Part shown: in pieces, positions 4,172-21,413 of the stretch
How positions within the stretch are numbered: position 1 is the stretch's first letter
Layout of the letters: each line of letters begins with the position of its first letter
Virus record (IMG/VR): IMGVR_UViG_3300042907_002520
Span: 1 to 22,598 of that record
Origin: a virus
Strand: one strand, 5' to 3'
Length of the DNA: 22,598 nt
Position numbers and translations under genes: made by a program
The notes under the pieces: generated by a model
Database searches by the model: none
What the model saw: only the letters and a program-made list of their open reading frames with translations
What the model was told of the DNA's origin: nothing

Positions 4172-5208
4172 ATTAACTTATTAAGAAATAACAAACTTGC
4201 TTCTTTAGTATTATCTTGTTTTGTAATTTCAATCCTTAATTCATCATTAGTTGTAATTTGAATTGTTTGAACATCACTACCATAAAAATCATTATTGATA
4301 TAAACGTCCCAACCTGAAACGTTGGTCGGTGACAACAAAGTCATATTTGCAGTATATTCAATAAACTCAGAAAGAACTGTATTACCTGTTACAAATAACC
4401 AATTCATTTCAAACTCATTCGGATTCGGAGGAGTTTTGTCTCTTTTCTGTTTAAAGGTACTTGTATCCAATTCCATTATTTGAACCATTCTTTGAATTGC
4501 GGGTTTAATCTCAAATTCCTCTTCGTCGATGAGGTAACCCAACATAGTAAAATCATAAGATTGAACATAATATTTTCTGGCGTCCATATTCATCTGTGAT
4601 TCATCTCCAACATTATTCAAAATAATCGGAACATACTGACCCTTTATGAAAGTATAAGCCTGTCTCGATGAAAAAGTTTGCATTACAATTTTATTTAATT
4701 GATTCAGCTCTCTCATTCTGTTACAAATAATTTTTACACTGTAATTAATATCTACAGGTACAGGTTGAGGTATTGTATATATATCCATTCCTTGTTCGTT
4801 ACCATTCCATGTTGGTACCGAAGCGTAATAGAATTGTTTTCTATTTGGTATTGTATACTGTAAAGACGGATTGGTACCATACTTCACTTCAGGTACTCTT
4901 ACAACAGTCATAAATGGAGGACTTGGGTTATAGTCCAAATCAACAAAAGACCAAGTTTCCAAATATTGAGACCAATTCTGAGTAGTTATAATTCTATCTA
5001 GAAGTGGCACTATTTGACCCGCGGTAACAACTTGTAACTCTTCCTTAGTAAAATCTAACATACCTCTATCTAAATCCGCATGAAGAACAGATTTTGGCAA
5101 ATATGTACCATCTTCATTAATATATTGTAGTAGTTGTTCACGTCTAGCGGACAACTCCTTTTTAGGTACTAATGGTAATGTCTTTTTTATTTGTTTCGGA
5201 AACGGCAT
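4168..5208 (-). CDS. Tail completion / sheath stabiliser protein, T4 gp15-like
   Basis: The middle of this 346-residue protein follows the layout of T4 gp15, the tail terminator that caps tube and sheath and joins tail to head. A segment PVPVDINYSVKIICNRMREL (about 149-168) leads into a helix ending in VMQTF. Then come a polar loop (FIKGQYVPIIL) and a segment ARKYYVQSYDFTMLGYLIDE (about 210-229). This corresponds to the gp15 pattern of Y-x-L-S-I-F, VEQILPYF and R-x-x-EWSLTFEVNGWM. The N-terminal 100 and C-terminal 80 residues are not recognised; the last part looks beta-rich. It is the last gene of a three-gene operon with a gp14-like protein and a phosphatase; its ATG overlaps the upstream stop as TAATG, implying translational coupling. 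The structural role is likely, the exact gp15 assignment moderate; it rests on pattern and neighbourhood only. Confidence 0.55.
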   Translation of the reverse strand: MPFPKQIKKTLPLVPKKELSARREQLLQYINEDGTYLPKSVLHADLDRGMLDFTKEELQVVTAGQIVPLLDRIITTQNWSQYLETWSFVDLDYNPSPPFMTVVRVPEVKYGTNPSLQYTIPNRKQFYYASVPTWNGNEQGMDIYTIPQPVPVDINYSVKIICNRMRELNQLNKIVMQTFSSRQAYTFIKGQYVPIILNNVGDESQMNMDARKYYVQSYDFTMLGYLIDEEEFEIKPAIQRMVQIMELDTSTFKQKRDKTPPNPNEFEMNWLFVTGNTVLSEFIEYTANMTLLSPTNVSGWDVYINNDFYGSDVQTIQITTNDELRIEITKQDNTKEASLLFLNKLI

Positions 5209-5918
5209 TATTTACTAAACTTTTCAATCATTTTATCCATTGGATAGAACGTATCTGCATATTTGTCATACCCGCTTCCGAAGAATCTGCCAGAATCAAT
5301 CATTCTTTTCCAACCATTATATTTTGTAGTGTAATTCCATAAGTCGTCCAAATCAGTCATTTTACCTGTCTTTTTCAAATACCCACCAACCAAACCACCA
5401 GTTCTATCTGCACCGTGAGCACAGTGTATTAATGTATTACCTTCAGATAAAATAGGGATTATTTTTCTCAAAGACCCTACATACCCTTCACCTTCTTTAT
5501 AACCTTCATGAGAACTTATTTTATGAAATTTACAACCCAAACTTTCACAAATTTTTTTCTCGTCGGAAATAGAAAGAGGTTCATGTGAACTTCTATGCTT
5601 CGCATCAACCCCATCACCATTCAAACGTATAATATTTTTGATTCCAAATTTTTTGATAACTGCAGGAAGAACTGACCCTTCGATTTGAGCCGACCTAAAA
5701 TTATTTTTACCGTCAGGAATTGAATGAAAATTATACTTTGTTTTCAAATCCTGAGGTACTTCTACTTCTAAATCTTTATCTTCTAACCCCAATTGGGACT
5801 TTAACTTTTCCAAAGATTCGGGACCCAACAAATCTTTCAATTTATCCATCAAAAAATCTGCAAGCCCTTCAGTTATAACAACCGCTTTATCTCCTTGCTT
5901 GTTAAAAATAAGTTTCAT
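5208..5918 (-). CDS. Cys-based tyrosine/dual-specificity protein phosphatase
   Basis: The active-site P-loop HCAHGADRTG is intact (residues 165-174), with catalytic Cys166 and phosphate-binding Arg172 in the HCX5R spacing of protein tyrosine and dual-specificity phosphatases. Upstream, FRSAQIEG (74-81) and IKNIIRLNGDG (93-103) match the early strand elements of the DSP/PTP fold. The first 60 residues are an extra charged, partly helical segment not needed for catalysis. These enzymes remove phosphate from Tyr/Ser/Thr of proteins, or from nucleotides or RNA 5' ends in some relatives. The gene sits between gp14- and gp15-like structural genes, joined to both by one-base TAATG overlaps, so it would be made late at similar levels to virion parts. 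It could act on host signalling, on a phosphorylated virion protein, or be packaged. The fold is clear; the target is unknown. Confidence 0.85.
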   Translation of the reverse strand: MKLIFNKQGDKAVVITEGLADFLMDKLKDLLGPESLEKLKSQLGLEDKDLEVEVPQDLKTKYNFHSIPDGKNNFRSAQIEGSVLPAVIKKFGIKNIIRLNGDGVDAKHRSSHEPLSISDEKKICESLGCKFHKISSHEGYKEGEGYVGSLRKIIPILSEGNTLIHCAHGADRTGGLVGGYLKKTGKMTDLDDLWNYTTKYNGWKRMIDSGRFFGSGYDKYADTFYPMDKMIEKFSK

Positions 5919-6433: not shown

Positions 6434-6436
6434 ATT

Positions 6437-6444
6437 GATAAATA
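6437..6444 (-). promoter_or_regulatory. TATTTAT-type motif at gp14-like operon
   Basis: The minus strand reads TATTTATC, ending three bases before the ATG at 6433. If it is a -10-like promoter element, the transcript would have almost no leader. Same motif family as at 3924, 8626, 10189, 14503, 14920, 19771 and 21373. Confidence 0.35.
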
Positions 6445-6476
6445 CTTTACAGTTGATTATATTTAATCCAAAAATT

Positions 6477-6863
6477 ATGGTAATATATCCACCAACTAAA
6501 ATAAAACTTCAAAAAAGTAACACTCACGGGATTGGTGTTTTTTGTTCTAAACAAATATCGAGAGGTGAGATTATTGAACAATGTTCATTTTTGGTAATTC
6601 AAAATCACAGAAATAAACCACTTCACGTTTTCATTGACCATGCATATGTTTGGCCAAAATCTGTCAATTGGAGAGAATATGTGTTAGTTATGGGATATGG
6701 TTCATTTTATAATCATTCTTCTGAACCTAATGTCGATTGGGTAACAAAAGAAAACGAAAATATTTTCGAATATTTTGCAATAAAAGATATCAAAGAAGGA
6801 GAAGAACTTTTTATTAATTATGGAATGGAGATAAATTTTCCAATCAAAAAACCGAATGGATAA
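6477..6863 (+). CDS. SET-domain protein methyltransferase, 128 aa
   Basis: This is a compact SET domain, which transfers methyl from S-adenosylmethionine to a protein lysine. The three signature blocks are present: HGIGVF (17-22) for cofactor binding; GYGSFYNHSSEPN (73-85), the NHS-PN pseudoknot block; and GEELFINYG (108-116) with the catalytic-site Tyr115. There is no pre-SET or post-SET region, as usual for stand-alone bacterial and viral forms. I chose ATG 6477; the frame extends to a TTG at 6435, but the extra 14 residues are not SET-like and would start inside the divergent spacer. The last eight bases overlap the helicase start (ATGGATAA), so the two are translationally coupled. The substrate is unknown; phage, host ribosomal or nucleoid proteins are possible. 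No TATTTAT motif precedes it, suggesting different timing from virion genes. Confidence 0.87.
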   Translation: MVIYPPTKIKLQKSNTHGIGVFCSKQISRGEIIEQCSFLVIQNHRNKPLHVFIDHAYVWPKSVNWREYVLVMGYGSFYNHSSEPNVDWVTKENENIFEYFAIKDIKEGEELFINYGMEINFPIKKPNG

Positions 6864-8613
6864 AATAAGTTTAGAATCCAAAGCACTAATATTGTTGGAG
6901 TCCTATGATGGACCTAACAATTATTTGCTTGAACTAAAAAGAAAGTCACAAGTAAATAAAAAGTTTTACCCAACTAGGAGTCAATCTGAATATATAATTA
7001 ACAACCACGATAAAACCCCTAAGGTTGCCAAAAAGTGGATTATATTAGATTCATACTTTGCTCAAAAATTGGCAGATGACAAACTATACACGAACGTTCC
7101 CGAAAAAGTTTGGGTTGAAAAGTTATTAGCAGAAAAAGACAAGGCCTATCATATTTGGGGTAAAGTTTTTGAAACCGAACAACTCCACGACTTTTGGTTA
7201 CCCAAAGCATCAATAATAAAAGACAATACAGTAAAAGATGTTGTAATTGATTATGAAAAATATTCAAAAAGACCTCCGTTAACTCATCAGAGAGAAGCTA
7301 TCCAAAAATTAGTTGAAAATAAAAAATACATCTTGGCAGATGATATGGGTTTGGGAAAAACCACTTCAACAATAATTGCGGCTCTTGAATCTGGTGCAAA
7401 AAAAGTTTTAATCATTTGTCCGGCAACACTCAAAATAAATTGGAAGAGAGAGATTGAAAACTATTCTAACAAGTCAATTTATATTTGTGAAGGTAAAAAT
7501 TTTGAAGGGAACCATGATTTTGTAATAATAAACTATGATATAATAAAGAATTTTCATGACACTAAAAAGAAAGATGATTCGCAAATTCTTAGGGCCAATT
7601 TTGATTTGGTGGTTATTGATGAAGCACACTATATCAAAAATGCTCAAGCTCAGAGAACCAAACTCATAAATGATATTGTAAAAAAAGTTGACAGGTTGTG
7701 GTTATTAACCGGTACACCAATGACATCAAGACCTATAGATTACTTCAACTTGTTGAGTTTGATTGATTCTCCTGTTGCTAAAAATTGGATGGCTTATGTG
7801 ATTAGATATTGTTCGGGTTATCAATTTAGAGTTGGTCCAAGAAAAGTTTGGAATGTAATGGGGGCCTCAAATTTAGAAGAATTAAGAGATAGAACATCGA
7901 ACCTTACCTTGAGAAGATTAAAAGAAGATGTTTTAGATTTACCTGATAAAATTATTACACCCGTATATCTGAGATTAAAATCTAAAGAATACGAAGAGGT
8001 TATGGGCGAGTATTATAATTGGTATGAAAAAAACCCTGAAGAATCTAAATCATTGACGGTACAATTTACCAAACTAACCAAGGTTAGGCAAATAATTGCA
8101 GACGAAAAAATAAGTCAAACAATTGAATTGGCCGAAAATATTTTAGAACAAGATAAAAAGGTTATTATTTTTTGTAATTTCACAAACTCACTCAATAAAA
8201 TTACAGAGCACTTTGGAAAAACCGCAGTAAAACTTGATGGGTCTATGTCCAAACAAGAAAGACAATTTGCGGTAGACCAATTCCAAGAAAATGAAAAAGT
8301 TAAAGTTTTTGTTGGTAATATTAAAGCTGCTGGCGTGGGGATTACCTTAACATCTGCAGAAGCGGTTATCATGAACGACCTTTCATTTTTACCCTCAGAC
8401 CACTCTCAAGCAGAAGACAGAGCATATAGATATGGTCAAAAAAATAATGTACTTGTATATTACCCAATTTTTGAAAATACAATCGAAGGAATAATTTACG
8501 ACATATTAAATAACAAAAAACAAGTAATAGCAACCGTTATGGGTGACGTGTCAAATTCATCTGCCGATTACGTTGAAGAAATATTACAAAAAATAAATGA
8601 AATGCGACATTAA
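6856..8613 (+). CDS. SNF2-type DEAH-box helicase/translocase
   Basis: This is a two-lobed superfamily 2 ATPase of the SNF2 type, which moves along duplex DNA and remodels forks or branched DNA. Motifs are complete: Q-like THQREA (143-148), Walker A DDMGLGKT (162-169), Ia PATLKINW (189-196), DEAH (255-258), LTGTP (284-288), IV IIFCNF (437-442), V AAGVGITLTSA (491-501) and VI QAEDRAYRYGQ (518-528). Motif VI with its arginine finger and the RYGQ ending is characteristic of SNF2 proteins such as SMARCAL1. The first 130 residues are unrecognised and lack a zinc-binding pattern. The length of 585 is close to that of minimal phage SNF2 proteins. The likely role is replication or recombination of phage DNA (compare T4 UvsW, another SF2 helicase, as an analogue only). 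The start overlaps the SET gene by eight bases. No Shine-Dalgarno sequence. Confidence 0.93.
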   Translation: MDKISLESKALILLESYDGPNNYLLELKRKSQVNKKFYPTRSQSEYIINNHDKTPKVAKKWIILDSYFAQKLADDKLYTNVPEKVWVEKLLAEKDKAYHIWGKVFETEQLHDFWLPKASIIKDNTVKDVVIDYEKYSKRPPLTHQREAIQKLVENKKYILADDMGLGKTTSTIIAALESGAKKVLIICPATLKINWKREIENYSNKSIYICEGKNFEGNHDFVIINYDIIKNFHDTKKKDDSQILRANFDLVVIDEAHYIKNAQAQRTKLINDIVKKVDRLWLLTGTPMTSRPIDYFNLLSLIDSPVAKNWMAYVIRYCSGYQFRVGPRKVWNVMGASNLEELRDRTSNLTLRRLKEDVLDLPDKIITPVYLRLKSKEYEEVMGEYYNWYEKNPEESKSLTVQFTKLTKVRQIIADEKISQTIELAENILEQDKKVIIFCNFTNSLNKITEHFGKTAVKLDGSMSKQERQFAVDQFQENEKVKVFVGNIKAAGVGITLTSAEAVIMNDLSFLPSDHSQAEDRAYRYGQKNNVLVYYPIFENTIEGIIYDILNNKKQVIATVMGDVSNSSADYVEEILQKINEMRH

Positions 8614-8623
8614 CGAACTTCGG

Positions 8624-8641
8624 GTTATTTATAGAAATAAC
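8624..8641 (+). promoter_or_regulatory. Hairpin containing TATTTAT motif before SOD-fusion gene
   Basis: GTTATTT and AAATAAC form a perfect 7-bp inverted repeat with an ATAG loop, nine bases before the ATG at 8650. The left arm and loop contain TATTTATA (8626-8633). It could be a promoter element, or an mRNA hairpin near the start. There is no T-run after it, so it is not a classical terminator for the helicase gene. Confidence 0.35.
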
Positions 8642-8649
8642 TCAGTTAA

Positions 8650-10182
8650 ATGAAAAAAGTAGAAGAAAAAATTATACAACTCCAAAGCCAAATACTTGAA
8701 AGTAGAATTGAAACCGAAAAAGAGTTGTTACTAACAGAAATGAAAAAAATTGGAATAGAAAAACTTCCATATTCCTATTCAGCCTTGAAACCATTTATCG
8801 ATTCAGAGACAATGGATTTCCATTATAACAAACATTATAAAGGTTATGTAGATAAGTTGAACGACGCTTTATCTAAAAAGAAATATGGTGACTTAGAATT
8901 AGAACAAATTATTAAAAACATAAGTCGTTACGATAAATCAATAAGAAACAATGCGGGTGGGGCCTTCAACCACGCACTTTTTTGGAATATGCTTTCACCC
9001 AAAACACAAAAGTTGACAGGTGAACTTTATAAAAAAATAACAAAGAAGTGGGGAACGTTTACCAACTTTAAAAAAGAATTTGAAACCGCAGCTAAAGACC
9101 GATTTGGTTCAGGATGGGTATGGTTAGTTTTAACCGCTAAGAACCAATTGAAAATTATGACTACTCCGAACCAAGACAATCCATTAATGAATATTATTGA
9201 TGGTGGTGGTTTTCCACTACTCGGTCTAGATTTATGGGAACATGCTTATTATCTGAAATACAGAAACAAGAGAGATGAATATATTTTAAATTTTTGGAAA
9301 GTAGTTAATTGGGATTTTGTTACCAAAATGTATGAATTAAGAACCCAAACGAAATTATTAGAATCCACAGAGTTTAGGAATGTTATTTCAGAACAAAAGA
9401 CCGCAAATTTTTGTGACGCCAAAGAGATTGTATATTACAAAGAACTTTTGAATCCATATAAAAATAAAAAATTTTATGAAGAAGAGGTTAGAAAAACATT
9501 GAAATCTGTATTTGGACAATTTTGGGTTGAGGAAACTAAAGATGAGATGTCCGGATTTTATGGAATAGAATCACCTGAAGGTAGGTCAATACTTAATAAC
9601 CTAAACAGCAATATTAATACTTTCTGTCTACTTGTTAAAGCCGTAAACAAAGAAATTGATAAAATCGGAAAATCAGATAAAAAGTTCGATTTCACGAAAA
9701 AAGAAAAGTCGAACATGAAAGAATTATCAAGATTTTTGAATGCTTTAGATTATTTCAAAACAAACATTTACACGAAAAAGAATCCTGATTTTGTAAATAT
9801 TGTAAACGTTCTTTTGATTTTGTGGGAAAGAGGGCAAAAAAGTGAAAGAAAAGTTGAAGAAAAACTACAAAATTATTTTGGCGAATCATCCAAAGTAACC
9901 AGATTTGGTAAACATGGGTCGAAAAAAGATGCTTTTGGCGGTGTAGATATTGTTATAAATTTAGATGGTGTTGATTACACCGGACAAATTAAACCTTTCA
10001 ACACCACAAAAACTGATGGTGATGAAATTGCTGTATTAGGTAATGCAAACTACGCAGATTACAAAACTGATTGGTTATTGTTTCATAATACCAAAACAGA
10101 CCAGATACTTATATTTGAAAATAAACCTATAGGTAGAAAGTACGTTTTTAAATTAAACTCGTTACTCCACGAAATAGAATAA
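8650..10182 (+). CDS. Mn/Fe superoxide dismutase fused to PD-(D/E)XK nuclease-like domain
   Basis: Residues 35-232 are a full Mn/Fe superoxide dismutase, which converts superoxide to oxygen and hydrogen peroxide. All four metal ligands can be placed: H58 (FHYNKHYKGY), H108 (FNHALFWNML), D194 and H198 (LDLWEHAYY); gateway Tyr66 is also present. NNAGG (100-104) and Q175 in NQDNPL match the Mn type rather than the Fe type. The first 34 residues form a coiled-coil-like helix. The remaining 280 residues are not part of any SOD. Their end looks like a PD-(D/E)XK nuclease core: a helix with SERKVEEKL (398-406), then FGGVDIVINL (429-438) with D433, then YTGQIK (443-448) with the Q-x-K variant and K448. 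One uninterrupted frame, so a real fusion. It lies between the helicase and the gp13-like gene; function could be DNA processing or a virion-packaged protective enzyme. The SOD call is strong, the nuclease call moderate. Confidence 0.85.
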   Translation: MKKVEEKIIQLQSQILESRIETEKELLLTEMKKIGIEKLPYSYSALKPFIDSETMDFHYNKHYKGYVDKLNDALSKKKYGDLELEQIIKNISRYDKSIRNNAGGAFNHALFWNMLSPKTQKLTGELYKKITKKWGTFTNFKKEFETAAKDRFGSGWVWLVLTAKNQLKIMTTPNQDNPLMNIIDGGGFPLLGLDLWEHAYYLKYRNKRDEYILNFWKVVNWDFVTKMYELRTQTKLLESTEFRNVISEQKTANFCDAKEIVYYKELLNPYKNKKFYEEEVRKTLKSVFGQFWVEETKDEMSGFYGIESPEGRSILNNLNSNINTFCLLVKAVNKEIDKIGKSDKKFDFTKKEKSNMKELSRFLNALDYFKTNIYTKKNPDFVNIVNVLLILWERGQKSERKVEEKLQNYFGESSKVTRFGKHGSKKDAFGGVDIVINLDGVDYTGQIKPFNTTKTDGDEIAVLGNANYADYKTDWLLFHNTKTDQILIFENKPIGRKYVFKLNSLLHEIE

Positions 10183-10188
10183 TAAGAA

Positions 10189-10196
10189 TATTTATT
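10189..10196 (+). promoter_or_regulatory. TATTTAT-type motif before gp13-like gene
   Basis: TATTTATT lies in the 18-base gap after the SOD-fusion gene and ends four bases before the ATG at 10201. It is in the gene's own direction, as with the other copies. Confidence 0.35.
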
Positions 10197-10200
10197 TGAT

Positions 10201-11328
10201 ATGGCAGTAATACCGGAACCAGAAAGAAGTAGAATATATACAAGAATTAAACATCTATTAGGTGCACCGCTCAGAAGTGTTGAGCTCACAGATGAAATGA
10301 TGGATTCACTAATGGAGTTATCTTTAGGTGATTATGAGGAATATGTTTTACAATGGTTAATTGATAGTCAATGGGTTAATTTGGTTAACCTAAATATGAG
10401 TGAAAAATCTGTAGCAAGAGCACTTGTGACAAGGACTATGGATTTTGAACAACAATTTGCATATTCATATTCAAAAATTGTAGGACTACAAACTATGGGT
10501 CCGTGGGTACTTAAAAAAGATTATTTTATTCTGAGTGCTAATACCCAGAATTATGAGATACCTGCTGGTAGAGAGGTAAACGAACTTTTATGGTTCTCTA
10601 ACCAACCATGGACAGCCTTTGGATTAGGTGGAATTGGTGGGTTCGGATTTGGTGGAATTGGTTTAGGTGCGACTGAAGCCGGTTACGCTCAAATGGGATA
10701 TCAAGGTTCTTATTTCATGATGTCAGGTTTTGACTATTTGATTAGAATGCAAGAAGCAAACATTTTGAATAGAATACTTGGTGGTTCGCTTACATATAGA
10801 ATTACAGGTTTACCTGACGGTAAGAAAAACATCTTTCTATACAACACACCAGGAGGAAGATTTGATTGGATGAATTACAGTCAATATGTTGGTAGAGCAG
10901 TATGGTATTGGTATTATGATGTAGGGCCTGACGACAGAGCTTCATGTTTAAAGGCAAACCCTGACATTATCAAGTTACCAACGGACGTACCTATCGAAGA
11001 TTTAAGTTGGGAGGATTTAAACGTTCCAGGACAACAATGGGTTAGGAGATGGTTCACCGCTTATTGTAAAGAAACATTATCAAGAGTACGTGGTAAGTTT
11101 TCAGGTAATTTGAAGACACCTGACTCCGAATTGCAGATGGATTATCAGAGTTTATCAACTGAAGCAAAAGACGAAAAAACAAAACTAATAGAAGAACTTA
11201 CCGGTGCTGAAGGATGGTTAACAAGATTGAGACCTGAAAAAGTAATGGAGAGGGAAGCTTTGATTGCAGAAAATCTGAACAAACAAATGAAATTCAGAGC
11301 AATGCCGAGACAAATTTATGTAATTTAA
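10201..11328 (+). CDS. Neck protein, T4 gp13-like (head completion)
   Basis: The C-terminal third matches the conserved block of T4 gp13, the ring that seals the filled head and docks the tail. It has QQWVRRWFTAYCKETLSRVR (279-298), GKFSG, a loop with the LQMDYQSLSTEAKDEK segment, and LIEELTGAEG, followed by a charged helix. The N-terminus has a helical DEMMDSLMELSLGDYEEYV segment, typical of connector adaptors that pack against the portal. The middle carries a Gly-rich loop (about residues 140-160, repeats of GGIGGFGFGG type), an insertion likely to be flexible. The length is 375 against about 309 in T4. A TATTTATT motif is four bases before the ATG. The next gene starts one base after its stop. 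Its T4 partners gp14 and gp15 are encoded on the opposite strand, 4-6 kb away. Confidence 0.8.
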   Translation: MAVIPEPERSRIYTRIKHLLGAPLRSVELTDEMMDSLMELSLGDYEEYVLQWLIDSQWVNLVNLNMSEKSVARALVTRTMDFEQQFAYSYSKIVGLQTMGPWVLKKDYFILSANTQNYEIPAGREVNELLWFSNQPWTAFGLGGIGGFGFGGIGLGATEAGYAQMGYQGSYFMMSGFDYLIRMQEANILNRILGGSLTYRITGLPDGKKNIFLYNTPGGRFDWMNYSQYVGRAVWYWYYDVGPDDRASCLKANPDIIKLPTDVPIEDLSWEDLNVPGQQWVRRWFTAYCKETLSRVRGKFSGNLKTPDSELQMDYQSLSTEAKDEKTKLIEELTGAEGWLTRLRPEKVMEREALIAENLNKQMKFRAMPRQIYVI

Positions 11329-14916: not shown

Positions 14917-14937
14917 AACAATAAATATATTGTTATG
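14914..14937 (-). promoter_or_regulatory. Perfect 10-bp inverted repeat over BppU-like start codon
   Basis: CATAACAATA and TATTGTTATG are exact reverse complements around a four-base AATA spacer. The repeat spans the ATG at 14916-14914, the upstream stop codon at 14933-14935, and contains TATTTATT on the minus strand at 14927-14920. It may be an operator, or an RNA hairpin that hides the start codon. Confidence 0.45.
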
Positions 14938-16603
14938 ACTCTTTACGAAGCGACCTATCGTAATGTTCGAATCTATCGTGTTCGGTAGGGGTAATTAAAA
15001 GTAAACCAGAAAATAATTCTCCCTTTTTAACGAGTTGGTACATATAACTCATCCAAGTTTGTTCAAACGGATGTGCCCAAGTTGTATCCAAAAACATTTT
15101 CTTACTTCCTGGTTTGGTTACAACTTGTGGCCAGTTACAATAATAAACCTCACCTGTTGCATAAGGTATTTGTTTGTGAGACAAAATCTTATTGAACTCT
15201 GTTTTAGGAGCGTTCGGGTCTAACCCAATTTGAGGTAATCTAGGTTTACCTGGCCAAAACTTAGACCTTACATCTTGTGGTACATTATACCAAGACCATT
15301 GAGTCCCATTATCACCGAAAAATTCTGAGTAGTTTAATTTTAAAAAATCAAAATTTTCTTTTTTACTGATTTCCAAAGATTTTTGATATATGTTTTTGAC
15401 ATACCTATTGAATCCGTTTCTACAAATGGTTTCTTTTCCGTTATAAAAAAACATATCGTCTTCGAAAAAGAACATAAAATCATGCCCTGTGTTTTCAAAA
15501 TGTTCGGCAATCCACTGTCTTCCCCCACAAATCCCTAAATTATCTTTTTTAATATGTTCAAAACCATGTTCATCACAAAGTTTCTGATATTCATCGAAAG
15601 TTGAATCATCAGTTGAATTATTTAAAAGATATTTTTTTGGTTTATTTAGAAAATCTGAATCATAATCTTGCATTGATTGAATCAAGGTACGGAATTGATT
15701 TGGACTGTTAAAAGTTATTACGTAAACACCGACGTTGTTTAAATCCAAGTTATTGTTCGAATTTACAACCGTCTCTGATTTAGTAATCAAATTATCATTT
15801 TTCAAATCTTCGAAAAACTTTCCTATTAAACCATTACCCTCAATTTCAAAGTAATTTATAATGTCAGAATGTTTATAACACATTATTGAAAATATAGATT
15901 CTTCAGTTCCCATATAACCCTCGTCCAAAGTTGTTTTCAAAAGGCCGTAATAGATTCCATTTATCTCACCAATAGTATCTTTTGGCCCTCCAAAAAAACC
16001 CCCACGAGCAACTTTATTTACTTTTGCTCCCGCTAGTTCATTTAACCTATTATATTCAAAACCGTGAATTTCCTTTTCTGCACCATATGGGAAACAAATA
16101 AACGAAAACTTGGAGATATATTTTTCTAATTTATCTAAAACTTTATCATGAGTAAAATAACCAGGGTGTACTGTATTTGTTAAACCACCATCAATCCAAA
16201 ACATGTATTGTGAATTGAATTTGTCCATAATCTTAGCGTCGTGAAGTAAAAAAACTTTAGACATTACTAAGGGGTTATACATCTCTAGTTTCGCTTGTGT
16301 AGAATCCTTTAACCACCCAACTTGATTGGTCCACTCTGTATCAGTTCTTATTTTTTGAATTTGATTATAAAATTCATTTTTGAACCACGACAAAGGACGA
16401 TTAATGAACTGAGTGTTTGATTTACTTCTTTTTTTAAAAACAAACTCTTCGAGTTCTTCTTCTCCAAAAATTATCAAATTAGCATCAACGTCTAATAGCT
16501 TATCAAACTTTTCTAAATAATGAGAAAATGGTCTTGCCCATCCTTCAGACAATCCATCCCTCCCTATATTCCAAATTCCCGTAACTAAAGTTATATTACT
16601 CAT
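14933..16603 (-). CDS. Two-domain glycosyltransferase: HtrL/YibB-like plus GT2-like
   Basis: The first 265 residues are of the HtrL/YibB (WlaTC) type: ITLVTGIWNIGR near the start, YNPLVMSKVFLL (109-120), FWIDGGL (135-141), GGFFGGPKD (201-209) and GTEESIFSIM (232-241). After a linker (roughly 270-290, SNNNLDLNN) a second domain begins with VGVYVITFNSPNQFRTLIQS (291-310), KYLLNNSTDDSTF (324-336), a DNLGICGGRQW segment (354-364) and the acidic metal site FFFEDDM (378-384). That is a GT-A fold of the GT2 kind. The enzyme would transfer sugars from nucleotide donors; donor and acceptor are unknown. It is the last of four overlapping glycosyltransferase-type genes; its start overlaps the previous gene by eight bases. 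Its N-terminal half is a paralogue of the upstream gene. Confidence 0.8.
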   Translation of the reverse strand: MSNITLVTGIWNIGRDGLSEGWARPFSHYLEKFDKLLDVDANLIIFGEEELEEFVFKKRSKSNTQFINRPLSWFKNEFYNQIQKIRTDTEWTNQVGWLKDSTQAKLEMYNPLVMSKVFLLHDAKIMDKFNSQYMFWIDGGLTNTVHPGYFTHDKVLDKLEKYISKFSFICFPYGAEKEIHGFEYNRLNELAGAKVNKVARGGFFGGPKDTIGEINGIYYGLLKTTLDEGYMGTEESIFSIMCYKHSDIINYFEIEGNGLIGKFFEDLKNDNLITKSETVVNSNNNLDLNNVGVYVITFNSPNQFRTLIQSMQDYDSDFLNKPKKYLLNNSTDDSTFDEYQKLCDEHGFEHIKKDNLGICGGRQWIAEHFENTGHDFMFFFEDDMFFYNGKETICRNGFNRYVKNIYQKSLEISKKENFDFLKLNYSEFFGDNGTQWSWYNVPQDVRSKFWPGKPRLPQIGLDPNAPKTEFNKILSHKQIPYATGEVYYCNWPQVVTKPGSKKMFLDTTWAHPFEQTWMSYMYQLVKKGELFSGLLLITPTEHDRFEHYDRSLRKES

Positions 16604-17477
16604 ATATTCTATTGAATTCTTCTAATATTCTATAAAAACTTTTATTTTCTTCAAACAATTTAGGATTTGTTCCTGGCGGACAATTGTCAGGACACCACCA
16701 AATGTCAAAATGTTTTCTAACAAAAAGGTCTGGGTCGTTATGCCACATTACAGTCATGAGAACTTCTTCGTGATGTACCCTTTCTTCAGGAGTAATCTTG
16801 TACGCATAATCTTCGAATAAAGTTACAACATCATCCCACAAATCTTTATGACCACCAAAGAGACCACCTATAACATGAATCTTTCTTTGATAATTTTTAT
16901 ACCATTTTGGGTTAACTGTACCTGACCAATAATTTCTATCGTTATCCTTTCCTAATATAAGAAACTTTCCTTCAGTGTCTTCGACTAAATTTTTAAGAAA
17001 ATCATTGTTGAATAAATTACTTTCGTAGTATTTTCCTTGTGGATGGTCACTTCCTACTAAGTACTTATTAGGTATAAGTCCGCAATGTGATAAACCAGCA
17101 TCAATCCAAAAATAATAATCGTAGGATTTATCCTCTAACCACCACCAACCAAACTTGGACCATTGAATTTCAATACATCTGTCCCCTGTTTTTGCGCTTT
17201 CATAATCTTTATATTTCAATAATAATTCTTGATATTTTGTTTGACGTAAATCAAAAACTTTGAATTCTAATTTTTGTGGTGAAACTCCGTGAGATTCATA
17301 AAAAAACCTTTGTAATCTTTCTATTTCTCTGTCAGAAGTATAACAAAGAAAATCTGCGTCGGTCATTTTCAAAAGTGATAATAAACTGTATTGATAATGG
17401 CCTCCTCTTGATGGTCTTCCTCCAATTTCAGTCCCCGATAAATCACTATAAATGCAAGTAATAAATTTAACTTTCAT
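16596..17477 (-). CDS. HtrL/YibB-like putative glycosyltransferase
   Basis: A 293-residue cytoplasmic-type protein sharing the core of the HtrL/YibB family: KVKFITCIYSDL at the start, YYFWIDAGLSHCG (121-133), a GGLFGGHKDLW block (204-214) and HHEEVLMTVMWHNDPDLF (235-252). These align one for one with FWIDGGL, GGFFGGPKD and GTEESIFSIMCYKHSDI in the next gene. The family is placed among glycosyltransferases of surface polysaccharides (the Campylobacter WlaTC proteins are in such loci), but activity of most members is inferred. The WID element is the likely metal/donor site. It overlaps the GT25 gene by 11 bases and the fusion gene by eight, so all are read from one transcript. Confidence 0.75.
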   Translation of the reverse strand: MKVKFITCIYSDLSGTEIGGRPSRGGHYQYSLLSLLKMTDADFLCYTSDREIERLQRFFYESHGVSPQKLEFKVFDLRQTKYQELLLKYKDYESAKTGDRCIEIQWSKFGWWWLEDKSYDYYFWIDAGLSHCGLIPNKYLVGSDHPQGKYYESNLFNNDFLKNLVEDTEGKFLILGKDNDRNYWSGTVNPKWYKNYQRKIHVIGGLFGGHKDLWDDVVTLFEDYAYKITPEERVHHEEVLMTVMWHNDPDLFVRKHFDIWWCPDNCPPGTNPKLFEENKSFYRILEEFNRIYE

Positions 17478-18198
17478 ATGTGTATTCTATATGTTGATTT
17501 GATTTTTTTAATTGAGACATACTGTTAAAATCATAACAATTATTTGGAACTTTAACTGGTGAATACAAATTCCAATTATATGTCTGTGCATAGTAATTAT
17601 TATAGTTACCACCTGAAACATCAGACCAACCTGATTGTTGTGGTCCAATTGGTAGTATTGGACAATAACTTTGATGCTTTGACATTATTTCTCTATAAAT
17701 GTAATCATCGATGGCATAATAACCTTCTTTCCAAGGTTCGGTCATTTCCAGAACTCTATCATAGATTGAATGATGGTACATAATCATATTTGTGGCAAAA
17801 ATACCACGTTCATGTTCTTTAGCGGGTGGTAAATTTGTTAGGTCTATCAATAAAGGATATTTTTCACTTCTGTTGACAGGTCTAGCAAGTGTTGGAGCAA
17901 GGTTAAAAACACCCCACTCAAATTCACCGATTTCTTCGATTTGTTTAATCAAAGATTTGGCATAAGGCATTATCACACAATCGTCTTCTATTACTAAAAT
18001 ACTTTCATACCCTTTTTCTTTTGCTTCTTTGATTAATGTGGTGTGTGAACGAGTACACCCAACATGACTGTTTGTATCGACCGCTTTAAAATGTTCGTAA
18101 TCCCAACCAATGTATTCCATTTCTTTAACAATGGATTCTAATCTGTCGGGTCTTCTTTCAAGATTTACTACGAACTTTGGTATTGAATTAAATTTCAT
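17467..18198 (-). CDS. Glycosyltransferase family 25 (LPS-type)
   Basis: The 243-residue protein has the GT25 hallmark order: VNLERRPDRLESI (11-23), a helix, AVDTNSHVGCTRSHTTLIKE (39-58) where GCxxSH is the family block, and ILVIEDDC (67-74), the acidic metal motif. Members add galactose or related sugars to lipooligosaccharide in bacteria, and animal relatives modify hydroxylysine of collagen. The size is that of a complete single domain. The C-terminal 40 residues are Tyr/Asn-rich. The start overlaps the stop of the GT60-like gene as TAATG. In this setting it most likely extends a glycan begun by the upstream enzyme, though modification of host LPS cannot be excluded. Confidence 0.88.
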   Translation of the reverse strand: MKFNSIPKFVVNLERRPDRLESIVKEMEYIGWDYEHFKAVDTNSHVGCTRSHTTLIKEAKEKGYESILVIEDDCVIMPYAKSLIKQIEEIGEFEWGVFNLAPTLARPVNRSEKYPLLIDLTNLPPAKEHERGIFATNMIMYHHSIYDRVLEMTEPWKEGYYAIDDYIYREIMSKHQSYCPILPIGPQQSGWSDVSGGNYNNYYAQTYNWNLYSPVKVPNNCYDFNSMSQLKKSNQHIEYTYES

Positions 18199-19463
18199 TA
18201 ACTTACGTGATTGTGGTTTAGTTGTCCTGTAATTCTATCACACCACCCTTTAGATTCGGAGTGTGGCCAAACCACCCAATACTTCGGTAAAACATCCGTT
18301 TGAAACTCTCTCCATATTTTACAATATTTGTCAGGGTCTCTGAAGTATCCCGCAATTTCATTTTTATCAGAATCTCTTCTATATATAGTTTCATCATTTG
18401 GACCATGGAATGCTACCACCCAAAAGTCATAGTCCTTTTCAGGTACTTGAGAATATCCAATATCTATACAATGTTTGTAAACGGAAGCAAAATCTTTTTT
18501 CCAATCTTCTTCTGTTTCGTAATTGTAAGGGTTAGGAGGATAATTTTTATCCAAAGTATATTTTTGAACCGCTCTTTTTTCAAATAATAACCCAGAGTAT
18601 TTTTCATAATCTCTTAAAGTTCTTACAGAACCAAACCCATATGGACCGTCATGGCCTTCTTGAGTTTCGCCATCCATACCAAAGAGTTTTCTATTTGTTA
18701 AATGTGAGTGTTTGTTTTTGTCGCCCCAAGTTCTATCATCGTCCCACTGTTTTGTTCTACCCTTACGTGTATACTCATGATATACCACAGGTATGTGTGG
18801 ATGGAATAAATCATATCCCCAAGTGTAAGCCCTTGCCGCAATTGATATTTCTTCACCGTGGAAATAATATTCAGGATTGTGTTGAACTTCTTTTGAAAAC
18901 TCTCCCAAGGTAAAACAGAAGTGTGCGGAATAAAACCTAGCAGTAACAGGTTTTGTCATTTCTCTCCAGCCTGGAATTGTTTCAGGTAAGAAAAACACTG
19001 CACCTTCAGGAATAAATCTATCAAAAACCATCCTCCACGCATCCTGTGCTCTTCCCGCAGGGTCATTATCAGGGTCAAAGGAGGGTACATAACCCGTAAG
19101 TAGAGGTTTTTTATACCCATCCTTTTGAAGACCCTTTATCATTTTGATTAGGATGTCGTCCCAATCTTTTACAAATCTCATATGTGAATCAATTTGTAGT
19201 GTATAACTTTCACCACTATATAGTTGTTGAACTTGATGTCTCGCCCAACAAACTCCTTTGGCTTCCTGATATGGTATATCTAAAATTTTAAATCTTTTAT
19301 CTTTTCTGAACTCGTCTAAATTATCAAAACCGTCGGTTTCGGAATATTGTCTTGCAATACCTAAAACCAAGTTTTTTGGTTTTTTTGCATTTTCCAACAT
19401 ATTTTTTATGGTTGTTAGAAGTTGTGGGTCACGATAAGATGCAATCTGAACAAATATTTTCAT
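18198..19463 (-). CDS. GT60-like polypeptide GlcNAc-transferase (Skp1-GlcNAcT family)
   Basis: The N-terminus IFVQIASYRDPQLLTTIKNM (3-22) is the signature of the GlcNAc-transferase family that includes Dictyostelium Skp1 GlcNAc-transferase and Trypanosoma mucin O-GlcNAc-transferases (CAZy GT60). Further family elements are KGVCWARHQVQQLY (69-82), YTLQIDSHMRFVKDWDD (87-103) with the D-x-H metal motif at 92-94, an HGEE block (about 222-225), and a WGYD/H-E-Y region near 235-252. In known members the acceptor is Ser, Thr or hydroxyproline of a protein, with alpha-GlcNAc as the first sugar. The C-terminal 90 residues (FHGPNDETIYRRDSD onward) are an extra domain I do not recognise. It is the first gene of the glycosyltransferase operon, directly after a terminator and next to a Thr-rich mucin-like protein, the obvious candidate substrate. 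Confidence 0.87.
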   Translation of the reverse strand: MKIFVQIASYRDPQLLTTIKNMLENAKKPKNLVLGIARQYSETDGFDNLDEFRKDKRFKILDIPYQEAKGVCWARHQVQQLYSGESYTLQIDSHMRFVKDWDDILIKMIKGLQKDGYKKPLLTGYVPSFDPDNDPAGRAQDAWRMVFDRFIPEGAVFFLPETIPGWREMTKPVTARFYSAHFCFTLGEFSKEVQHNPEYYFHGEEISIAARAYTWGYDLFHPHIPVVYHEYTRKGRTKQWDDDRTWGDKNKHSHLTNRKLFGMDGETQEGHDGPYGFGSVRTLRDYEKYSGLLFEKRAVQKYTLDKNYPPNPYNYETEEDWKKDFASVYKHCIDIGYSQVPEKDYDFWVVAFHGPNDETIYRRDSDKNEIAGYFRDPDKYCKIWREFQTDVLPKYWVVWPHSESKGWCDRITGQLNHNHVS

Positions 19464-19796: not shown

Positions 19797-21359
19797 TTAT
19801 GATGGTGTTGGTGTAGAAGTTGGTGTTTCAGTAGGAGTAGATGTTAAAGTTTCAGTTGGTGTGGAAGTTGGTGTTTCAGTAGGAGTTGGTGTCTCAGTTT
19901 CAGTAGGAGTAGATGTTAAAGTTTCGGTAGGTGTAGAAGTTGGTGTTTCAGTAGGAGTAGATGTTAAAGTTTCGGTAGGTGTAGAAGTTGGTGTTTCAGT
20001 AGGAGTGGATGTTAAAGTTTCAGTTGGGGTAGGAGTTGGTGTCTCAGTTTCAGTAGGAGTAGATGTTAAAGTTTCAGTAGGTGTAGAAGTTGGTGTTTCA
20101 GTAGGAGTTGTGGTTGGTGTAGAAGTCGGCGTTGGAGTCACCTCACATAACTCAATTGAATCGATATATCCTGTTCCTCCTGTTATCACATATACATTTG
20201 TTCCATCTGAATAATATCCATCTGATGCATAAAACGCAGGGTCTGCAGCATAATCAGTGTAAATATGGTCTCCAACTATCAAAGATTCGCCAGGTATTTG
20301 ATAATAATCAGTTGCGATATTAGTACAAGCCTCGTTAGGGTCTGTAAAACTATAACCCAAAGGTACTATTGTTGGATTGTGTAACGATGGGTCTGTGCAA
20401 GTCCCTATATAGCTTATAGAACCGTCACCTGAAAGTACAATTGCGCTATCGTAGTTACCACAATAGATTGCACTCCAAGATGGAACACCATTCATTTGAA
20501 TTGTGTTACCCGAACAATCTAAAAATTCAAATAAAGGTGCTGCTGGTCCATTATATGAAAAAGATATTTCCGAACAACTCTCAACTATATCTGTTGGAGT
20601 AGGTGTATTTGTTGGGGTTTGTGTTGCAGTTTCAGAAGGTGTAACCGTTGGTGTTGATGTAGGTGTTTCAGTTGGTGTTGATGTAGGTGTTTCTGTCATT
20701 GTTGGTGTTGGAGTTGGTGTAGGTCCACAATTTCCATAAGTAACAATTGTTGCTCCTGTGACACAACCAACTCCACATCCACCGTTCAAATAATATATAA
20801 CATTATCTTCTACATAATAACCAATTGGGTCACCTGTGTTAGGCCCAACTAGGTCAGTCCATGCTAATGTAGAATTTGCAAAACTTGTTCCATTAACAAA
20901 TATTGACGCCACTTGTTGACAATCACAGGCTTCTTGAGCTGTATTTTCGTTATGACAAATATTAAACAATTGTGTTCTCACAACATTTGTTGGTGTTGGA
21001 GTTTGTGTGGGAGTGGAAGTTGGAGTTTCAGTGTTAGTTGGTGTTGATGTAATTGTCGGAGTTTGGGTATTACTTGGAGTTATAGAAGGGGTTGGGGTGT
21101 TAGATGGTGTTGGAGTTGGGGTGACAGAAGACGGTGTTGGTGATGGTTCTGCCGGTGGAAACTCACCTTCGTCAACCAACGAAACTGAAAATTCAAATGA
21201 TTCTGAAATTTGATACGTACCATCAATAACCCATATTGTTTTAGTTTGTCCTATAGATAGTGGTACCTGATATACCCAAAGAGCGTCAGAACACCTTTGA
21301 TAATTAAAATTAATTTCTGTACTACCGGTATTTGTTAAAATGAATTTACTACAAGACAT
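19797..21359 (-). CDS. Mucin-like Thr/Pro-repeat fibre protein, 520 aa
   Basis: Domains in order: an N-terminal domain (1-69) shared with the 71-residue neighbour; a Ser/Thr/Pro linker (71-125); a Cys-containing domain (126-212); a second Thr/Pro linker (213-257); a Cys-rich domain (258-325) and a domain (about 340-407) related to 126-212; and a 113-residue C-terminal tail (408-520). In the tail every second residue is Thr, alternating with Pro, Glu, Ser or Leu. The tail has ten octapeptide units TETPTSTP or TETLTSTP in near-perfect tandem. Such sequences are extended, disordered and classic targets for O-glycosylation. There is no signal peptide or membrane segment, which fits a virion protein. 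I start at ATG 21359, because MSCSK aligns with the neighbour's MACSK; a TTG at 21383 would add eight unrelated residues. TATTTATT lies 13 bases upstream. Likely a flexible, glycosylated host- or mucus-contact fibre. Confidence 0.85.
19800..20138. repeat. Coding tandem repeat, 24-base units (Thr/Pro tail)
   Basis: Ten 24-base units encode TETPTSTP or TETLTSTP, often alternating as a 48-base unit. They are broken twice by a TETETPTP-type spacer. Units differ only by a few silent or Pro/Leu changes, so copy number could shift by slippage or recombination. Shorter, less regular Thr/Pro-coding tracts lie at 20589-20723 and 20985-21149. Confidence 0.9.
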
Positions 21360-21372
21360 CCTTTTTTTTATT

Positions 21373-21380
21373 AATAAATA
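21373..21380 (-). promoter_or_regulatory. TATTTAT-type motif before mucin-like gene
   Basis: The minus strand reads TATTTATT, part of a 12-base palindrome TTTATTAATAAA, 13 bases before the ATG at 21359, in the 54-base gap after the repeat fibre gene. The gap has no GC stem, so no terminator. Confidence 0.35.
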
Positions 21381-21413
21381 CAATCAAAAACAAAAAAAAG
21401 TTTACTAAATATA

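Follow-up and report, generated by a model that had tools for sequence, protein, structure and literature searches.

A superoxide dismutase fused to an exchangeable, predicted PD-(D/E)XK nuclease module in giant freshwater phages

In giant freshwater phages, a Mn-type superoxide dismutase (SOD) is encoded in one frame with a domain of ~270 residues that lies outside known families and is predicted to fold as a PD-(D/E)XK nuclease. Comparison of close relatives shows that they exchange this C-terminal module, an allelic cassette, and that the SOD and the downstream neck gene stay constant. Our highest-rated reading, which we hold tentatively, is that the 510-aa product is a late nuclease whose tips are interchangeable and whose carrier is an active SOD, probably for conflict between phages or with the host. 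Both parts are of known kinds; the fusion architecture, with exact cassette exchange at the tip in what appears to be a hairpin-controlled late gene, was not found described.

An intact fusion gene of giant freshwater phages

The window (the whole stretch of DNA that was analyzed, 22,598 nt) is a fragment, a 22.6-kb virus record that also encodes a tail sheath, a neck protein, and a B-family DNA polymerase. The fusion gene and the features around it are listed in Table 1. Beside the polymerase gene there is a run of glycosyltransferase-like genes (HtrL/YibB, GT25, and GlcNAc transferase; 14933 to 19463, minus strand), and the region from 19797 to 21383 (minus strand) encodes a long PTPT/TSTPTET repeat protein, an unusual low-complexity coding region.

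Table 1. Features of the SOD-nuclease locus in the window
Feature	Coordinates	Strand	Basis or remarks
SNF2-family helicase, constant left flank	6856..8613	+	Pfam E 1e-29; synteny
Hairpin GGGTTATTT-ATAG-AAATAACTC	8622..8643	+	Encloses TATTTAT (8626-8632), 24 nt before ATG; covariation
SOD-nuclease fusion gene	8650..10182	+	ATG start, 510 aa, without internal stop
N-terminal extension, residues 1-35	8650..8754	+	Predicted helix; conserved TEMKKIGIE at end; alignment
Mn-type SOD domain, residues 36-232	8755..9345	+	Pfam, invariance, dN/dS, Foldseek
Junction, residues 233-252, with TKLLESTEFRNVISEQ	9346..9405	+	Exchange breakpoint
Exchangeable cassette, ~residue 238 to stop codon	9361..10182	+	Sharp DNA-identity loss at both points, four relative pairs
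Helical part of exchangeable C-terminal module, residues 253-377	9406..9780	+	AlphaFold2
Predicted PD-(D/E)XK nuclease core, residues 378-510	9781..10179	+	E399, D433, Q446, K448; predicted structure
Neck / head-tail adaptor gene, constant right flank	10201..11328	+	PHROG 211 E 1e-9; synteny

An earlier, sequence-only reading of this DNA had described an SOD that continues in a single frame into an extra C terminus, and it had named a join or frameshift at about position 9340 as what would refute it. The frame proved intact, and no join was found. Two contigs that are nearly identical to the window (L001 and L002; 13 to 21 differences per ~17 kb) span position 9340, and the open frame runs through in 80 other contigs. 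When IMG/VR was searched with the protein, 80 loci were recovered, every one of them with the complete in-frame fusion. Anchoring on the neck protein gave 73 further loci (some on contigs already found), and the fusion was directly upstream in all but one. Pooling both sets of loci yielded 97 distinct protein sequences on viral contigs, and at all 21 loci examined for gene order, the fusion gene lay between the SNF2 helicase gene and the neck gene. Since so many distinct sequences recur just upstream of the neck gene, the fusion is no assembly join. The possibility that two genes were joined artifactually by assembly or frameshift is negligible, and we reject it: independent contigs from many samples carry the identical intact frame, and nothing was found in favor of an artifact.

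The genomes of four relatives measured 317 to 326 kb, and the fusion is a core gene in a widespread and abundant group of giant freshwater phages. Among 50,697 phage records, 29 matched SOD, and the names of some of these mark them as records of bacterial genomes, so that the earlier remark that complete SODs are rare in phages was broadly right; none of the 29 SOD-matching records covered the C-terminal domain. The other phage SODs that we found (in PA5oct-like phages and Vibrio phage 2.275) are unfused. In a viral library, the whole module was matched (E = 2.5e-16) by A0A6J5L953, a 501-aa “superoxide dismutase [uncultured Caudovirales phage]”; this is the same fusion, already deposited under an annotation that names SOD only. 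Part of a 1113-aa marine phage protein likewise matched the module in this library. To our knowledge, no SOD-nuclease fusion had been known beforehand. A search of the openly licensed literature turned up no description of an SOD-nuclease fusion or of phage SOD fusions.

The SOD domain and the C-terminal module

The SOD domain matched PF00081 (E = 1.1e-24) and PF02777 (E = 1.7e-39) over residues 37 to 226, with Pfam scores (134 and 87 bits) far over the cutoffs (20.9 and 27). Counts of residue invariance rest on 55 non-redundant relatives, in all of which the metal ligands H58, H108, D194, and H198 and the Mn-type Q175 were invariant, as were the second-shell residues H62, Y66, W158, E197, and Y201; the SOD is thus as intact as had been claimed from the four ligands and the Gln. 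Using Foldseek, we matched the domain to MnSOD (E = 1e-14), and the bacterial SODs of solved structure among the matches listed were about 41 to 51% identical to it. The phage protein has all ligands, the Mn-type Gln, and the second shell of the Mn type of the Fe/Mn SOD family (PF00081/PF02777) but differs from that family in its C-terminal nuclease module and its N-terminal extension. The closest cellular SODs (about 44 to 56% identity) were mostly from Bacteroidota, which points to Bacteroidota as the probable host or SOD donor. Median dN/dS was 0.04 for the SOD compared with 0.17 to 0.21 for the module, values that are rough because synonymous sites are near saturation. The alternative suggested earlier, that the SOD fold is a mere metal-binding module for the nuclease, is disfavored by the invariant catalytic shell, by the low dN/dS, and by one relative that has an SOD without the nuclease.

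By sequence, the module gave no convincing match in Pfam, PHROGs, or the PDB (weak, scattered matches were ignored). It was modeled alone by AlphaFold2 on the 55-sequence alignment, and the model (pLDDT 86, pTM 0.76) consists of a helical part followed by a helix (residues 379 to 410) and three strands (415 to 418, 434 to 438, and 441 to 449), i.e., the alpha-beta-beta-beta core on which the sequence-only reading had staked its nuclease assignment. In Foldseek searches of the PDB, the model matched the archaeal Hjc resolvase 1gef (E = 1.3e-3, probability 1.00) and the homing endonuclease I-Ssp6803I (probability 1.00); as no match passes an E value of 0.001, the assignment to PD-(D/E)XK rests on several concordant nuclease matches together with the placement of the conserved residues. 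Those residues, E399 (the helix Glu), D433, Q446, and K448, were invariant in 55 of 55 relatives and in all three module types described below. These results support a PD-(D/E)XK fold for the module, nearest to Hjc Holliday junction resolvases and I-Ssp6803I, and bear out the claim of a fused, nuclease-like domain. The module shares the core fold and the E..D..xxK arrangement with these enzymes; it differs from them in an extra helical subdomain and in a Gln that stands, in the motif D433..Q446-x-K448, where D..(D/E)xK has Glu. A model of the whole protein was poor (pLDDT 69, pTM 0.49) and, for that reason, gave SODs alone among the Foldseek matches listed.

Relatives of the module also occur by themselves. 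The 735-kb phage LR756501.1 encodes a 290-aa relative without SOD (HMM E = 8e-24; tblastn with type B, 3e-6) that adjoins PhoH-like and SET-domain genes and has no close relatives in IMG/VR. Genome G001 carries a distant, fast-diverging family member of 455 aa without SOD (L238:18484-19848, minus strand), which is also present in G004, and G002 has a divergent stand-alone copy. Thus, the module exists apart from SOD; a pattern search found none in cellular genomes. A phage SET-domain protein is encoded near the nuclease gene both in the window (6435 to 6863, plus strand) and in the 735-kb phage (L150:5242-5679, minus strand).

The Gln in place of the motif Glu and the position beside the neck gene would suit a catalytically dead C terminus that serves as a head-completion or DNA-end-binding part, leaving SOD as the sole enzyme. 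We consider this quite improbable, given the invariance of the four motif residues across 55 relatives and three module types and the retention of D..QxK even in the distant relatives that stand alone, in the 735-kb phage and in G001. Instead, both halves look like active enzymes, with good support from their conserved residues.

Exchange of the module at a conserved junction

Identity to the window across the 55 relatives was 75 to 85% in the SOD and ranged from 56% down to 24% in the C-terminal part. Three module types were present among the 97 unique sequences: type A, to which the window belongs, accounts for 68 of them, type B for 19, and type C for 10. The extreme is illustrated by the pair L029 and L188, with SODs that are 98% identical and modules that are 35% identical. 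At the DNA level, identity was mostly 80 to 95% over the SOD and the neck gene and 42 to 66% over the module, and in four pairs of relatives, it dropped at residues 238 to 244 and recovered at the stop codon. The left breakpoint falls directly after TKLLES (a near-invariant TKL-x-E), and the right one falls directly after the stop codon. Placing types A, B, and C on the SOD tree required 7 changes, where 2 would be the fewest possible; the branches with strong support, taken by themselves, nevertheless force no more than one origin per type. One relative, L192, carries an allele without the module: its SOD gene (L192:4657-5475) ends exactly at the junction, and what by eye is a cytidylyltransferase-like gene stands between it and the neck gene.

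This organization recalls that of the CdiA-CT polymorphic toxins (PMC3150448), which likewise have a constant N-terminal part, a short conserved junction motif, and an exchangeable tip. In contrast with those toxins, the protein described here is phage encoded, its constant part is an enzyme, and it has no cognate immunity gene: none accompanied the cassette, the neck gene starting about 20 to 35 nt past the stop codon in all types. Module dN/dS was below 1 and, hence, gave no direct sign of positive selection.

Probable late expression, possible packaging, and proposed functions

The hairpin upstream of the fusion gene is supported by covariation. Across an alignment of 29 sequences, 94.4% of cells were paired and 19 cells carried compensatory double changes (e.g., arms GGATTAT..ATAATCC, GAGTTAT..ATAACTC, and GGGTTAT..ATAACCC), compared with no more than 51% paired in slid controls. 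Most relatives have it; roughly a dozen of the 55, including type C, lacked a clear one. The enclosed TATTTAT recurs before the neck gene (10189 to 10195). In the 40 nt before start codons of G001, this element was enriched 27-fold; it preceded 100 of 354 ORFs, peaking at 11 to 13 and 19 to 24 nt before the start codon. It stood before the prohead protease, portal, and neck genes of G001 and was missing before the polymerase, SNF2, and PhoH genes; the major head protein gene also lacked it in that stretch. We read TATTTAT as the probable late promoter of these phages. Hairpins in T4 silence read-through transcripts of e, soc, 49, I-TevI, and segB until late in infection (PMC3014915, PMC2988022), and by analogy, read-through transcripts of the SOD-nuclease gene may be silenced in the same way. 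A late-type promoter inside an RNA hairpin would probably limit expression to late infection.

The module could instead be a late Holliday junction or branch resolvase for DNA packaging. Such an enzyme would replace T4 endonuclease VII (gp49), with the SOD supplying the dimer that resolvases of this kind require and the module types being diverged equivalents. T4 gene 49 is itself hairpin silenced until late (PMC3014915), the nearest solved folds are those of Hjc resolvases, and the fusion gene adjoins the neck gene. Moreover, no endonuclease VII (PF02945) over the cutoff (T4 control, E = 4e-23) and no RuvC were found in the four related genomes of 317 to 326 kb. However, a housekeeping enzyme would be expected to be conserved like its neighbors, whereas module identity fell to 24 to 37% beside a neck protein at 85 to 94%, and one relative has no module at all. 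We rate this explanation second and regard it as possible but doubtful.

The protein may also be packaged, as the sequence-only reading had proposed; the late-type promoter, a prohead protease in relatives, and a leader-like junction suggest as much by resemblance. The T4/gp21-type prohead protease (PF03420; E, about 1e-22) was present in all four large relatives. The major head protein has LINE-A near its N terminus, and the junction, L-[IL]-[TS]-E-[SGA], is similar to it as well as to prohead protease cleavage sites and to leaders found on other proteins in these phages; L236 and E238 were invariant in 55 of 55 relatives, and E248 was found in 53 of 55. G001 encodes ~23 otherwise different proteins with leader-like N termini (e.g., MSKIVRLTESDLIRLVKRVLKEQ) compared with 4 expected. 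The stand-alone module protein of G001 has a leader-like N terminus, beginning MRDLIKKLLREE. TATTTAT preceded 20 of 27 leader-bearing proteins compared with 80 of 327 others. The shared leaders probably target these proteins to the head and are then cleaved off by the prohead protease, in keeping with the targeting propeptides and their cleavage described for SPN3US (PMC5694885). Within G001 (L230 to L246), the leaders read LTESDL..LVK.V..EQ or MKYIITESQ...EQ, as in the ORFs at 202592 to 203474, 206724 to 207713, and 214554 to 216007. Two window proteins, both on the minus strand, may have cleavable leaders as well: a dual-specificity-phosphatase-like protein with VVITEG near its N terminus (5208 to 5918) and a protein starting MRNITEG that by eye resembles a HAD phosphatase and has no Pfam match (3 to 629).

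The SOD-nuclease could be an internal head protein like those of T4: the chain would enter the prohead, the gp21-type protease would separate its parts at the junction, and both would be injected with the DNA, the nuclease attacking the DNA of the host or of a rival and the SOD countering a superoxide burst. We place this explanation third and think it rather unlikely. The protease, the junction, and the excess of leaders in G001 argue for it, but the SOD-nuclease has no clear N-terminal leader of its own, and the leader pattern was defined after the leaders had been viewed. The pattern has 36 internal matches in G001, that at the junction being one of them; a single internal match is at chance level, so the case for the junction rests on the conservation of E238 and E248. 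The N-terminal extension is possibly a degenerate head-targeting leader, and the N terminus of L192 is leader-like.

The internal head protein and the conflict nuclease overlap as explanations, and we tentatively prefer the latter. On this reading, the gene product is a phage protein that is made late and has two functions, its Mn-type SOD being joined by the short conserved junction to a predicted, Hjc-like PD-(D/E)XK nuclease. The nuclease might cut DNA that is absent from or protected in its own phage, i.e., that of a co-infecting relative or of the host, and such targeting would favor diversity of the tips. The SOD might act as an active dimeric carrier that pairs two nuclease domains and might also remove superoxide in the infected cell or the particle; the protein may also be taken into the head, where the gp21-type prohead protease would cleave it at the junction. 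A more complete conflict system, with an active SOD as constant carrier and dimerizing platform that also handles the oxidative response and with late, possibly packaged nuclease tips that hit competitor or host DNA, is conceivable, though we have considerable doubt about it as a whole. Endonuclease-based interference between phages is known (PMC11620839). The T4 homing endonucleases segB, mobE, and I-TevI are expressed late under a hairpin, and PhiPA3 gp210 is a nuclease used in the contest with related phages, both as proposed here; those enzymes are of the GIY-YIG or HNH type, whereas here a PD-(D/E)XK module is swapped at the C terminus of a fixed core gene.

If conflict drives diversification, exchange of the nuclease tip alone, at a sharp and conserved junction, is what one would expect to see. 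The module types are ready-made natural variants with which to test which DNA each tip would cut, and with the fusion one can also test what a virus gains from retaining a superoxide dismutase.
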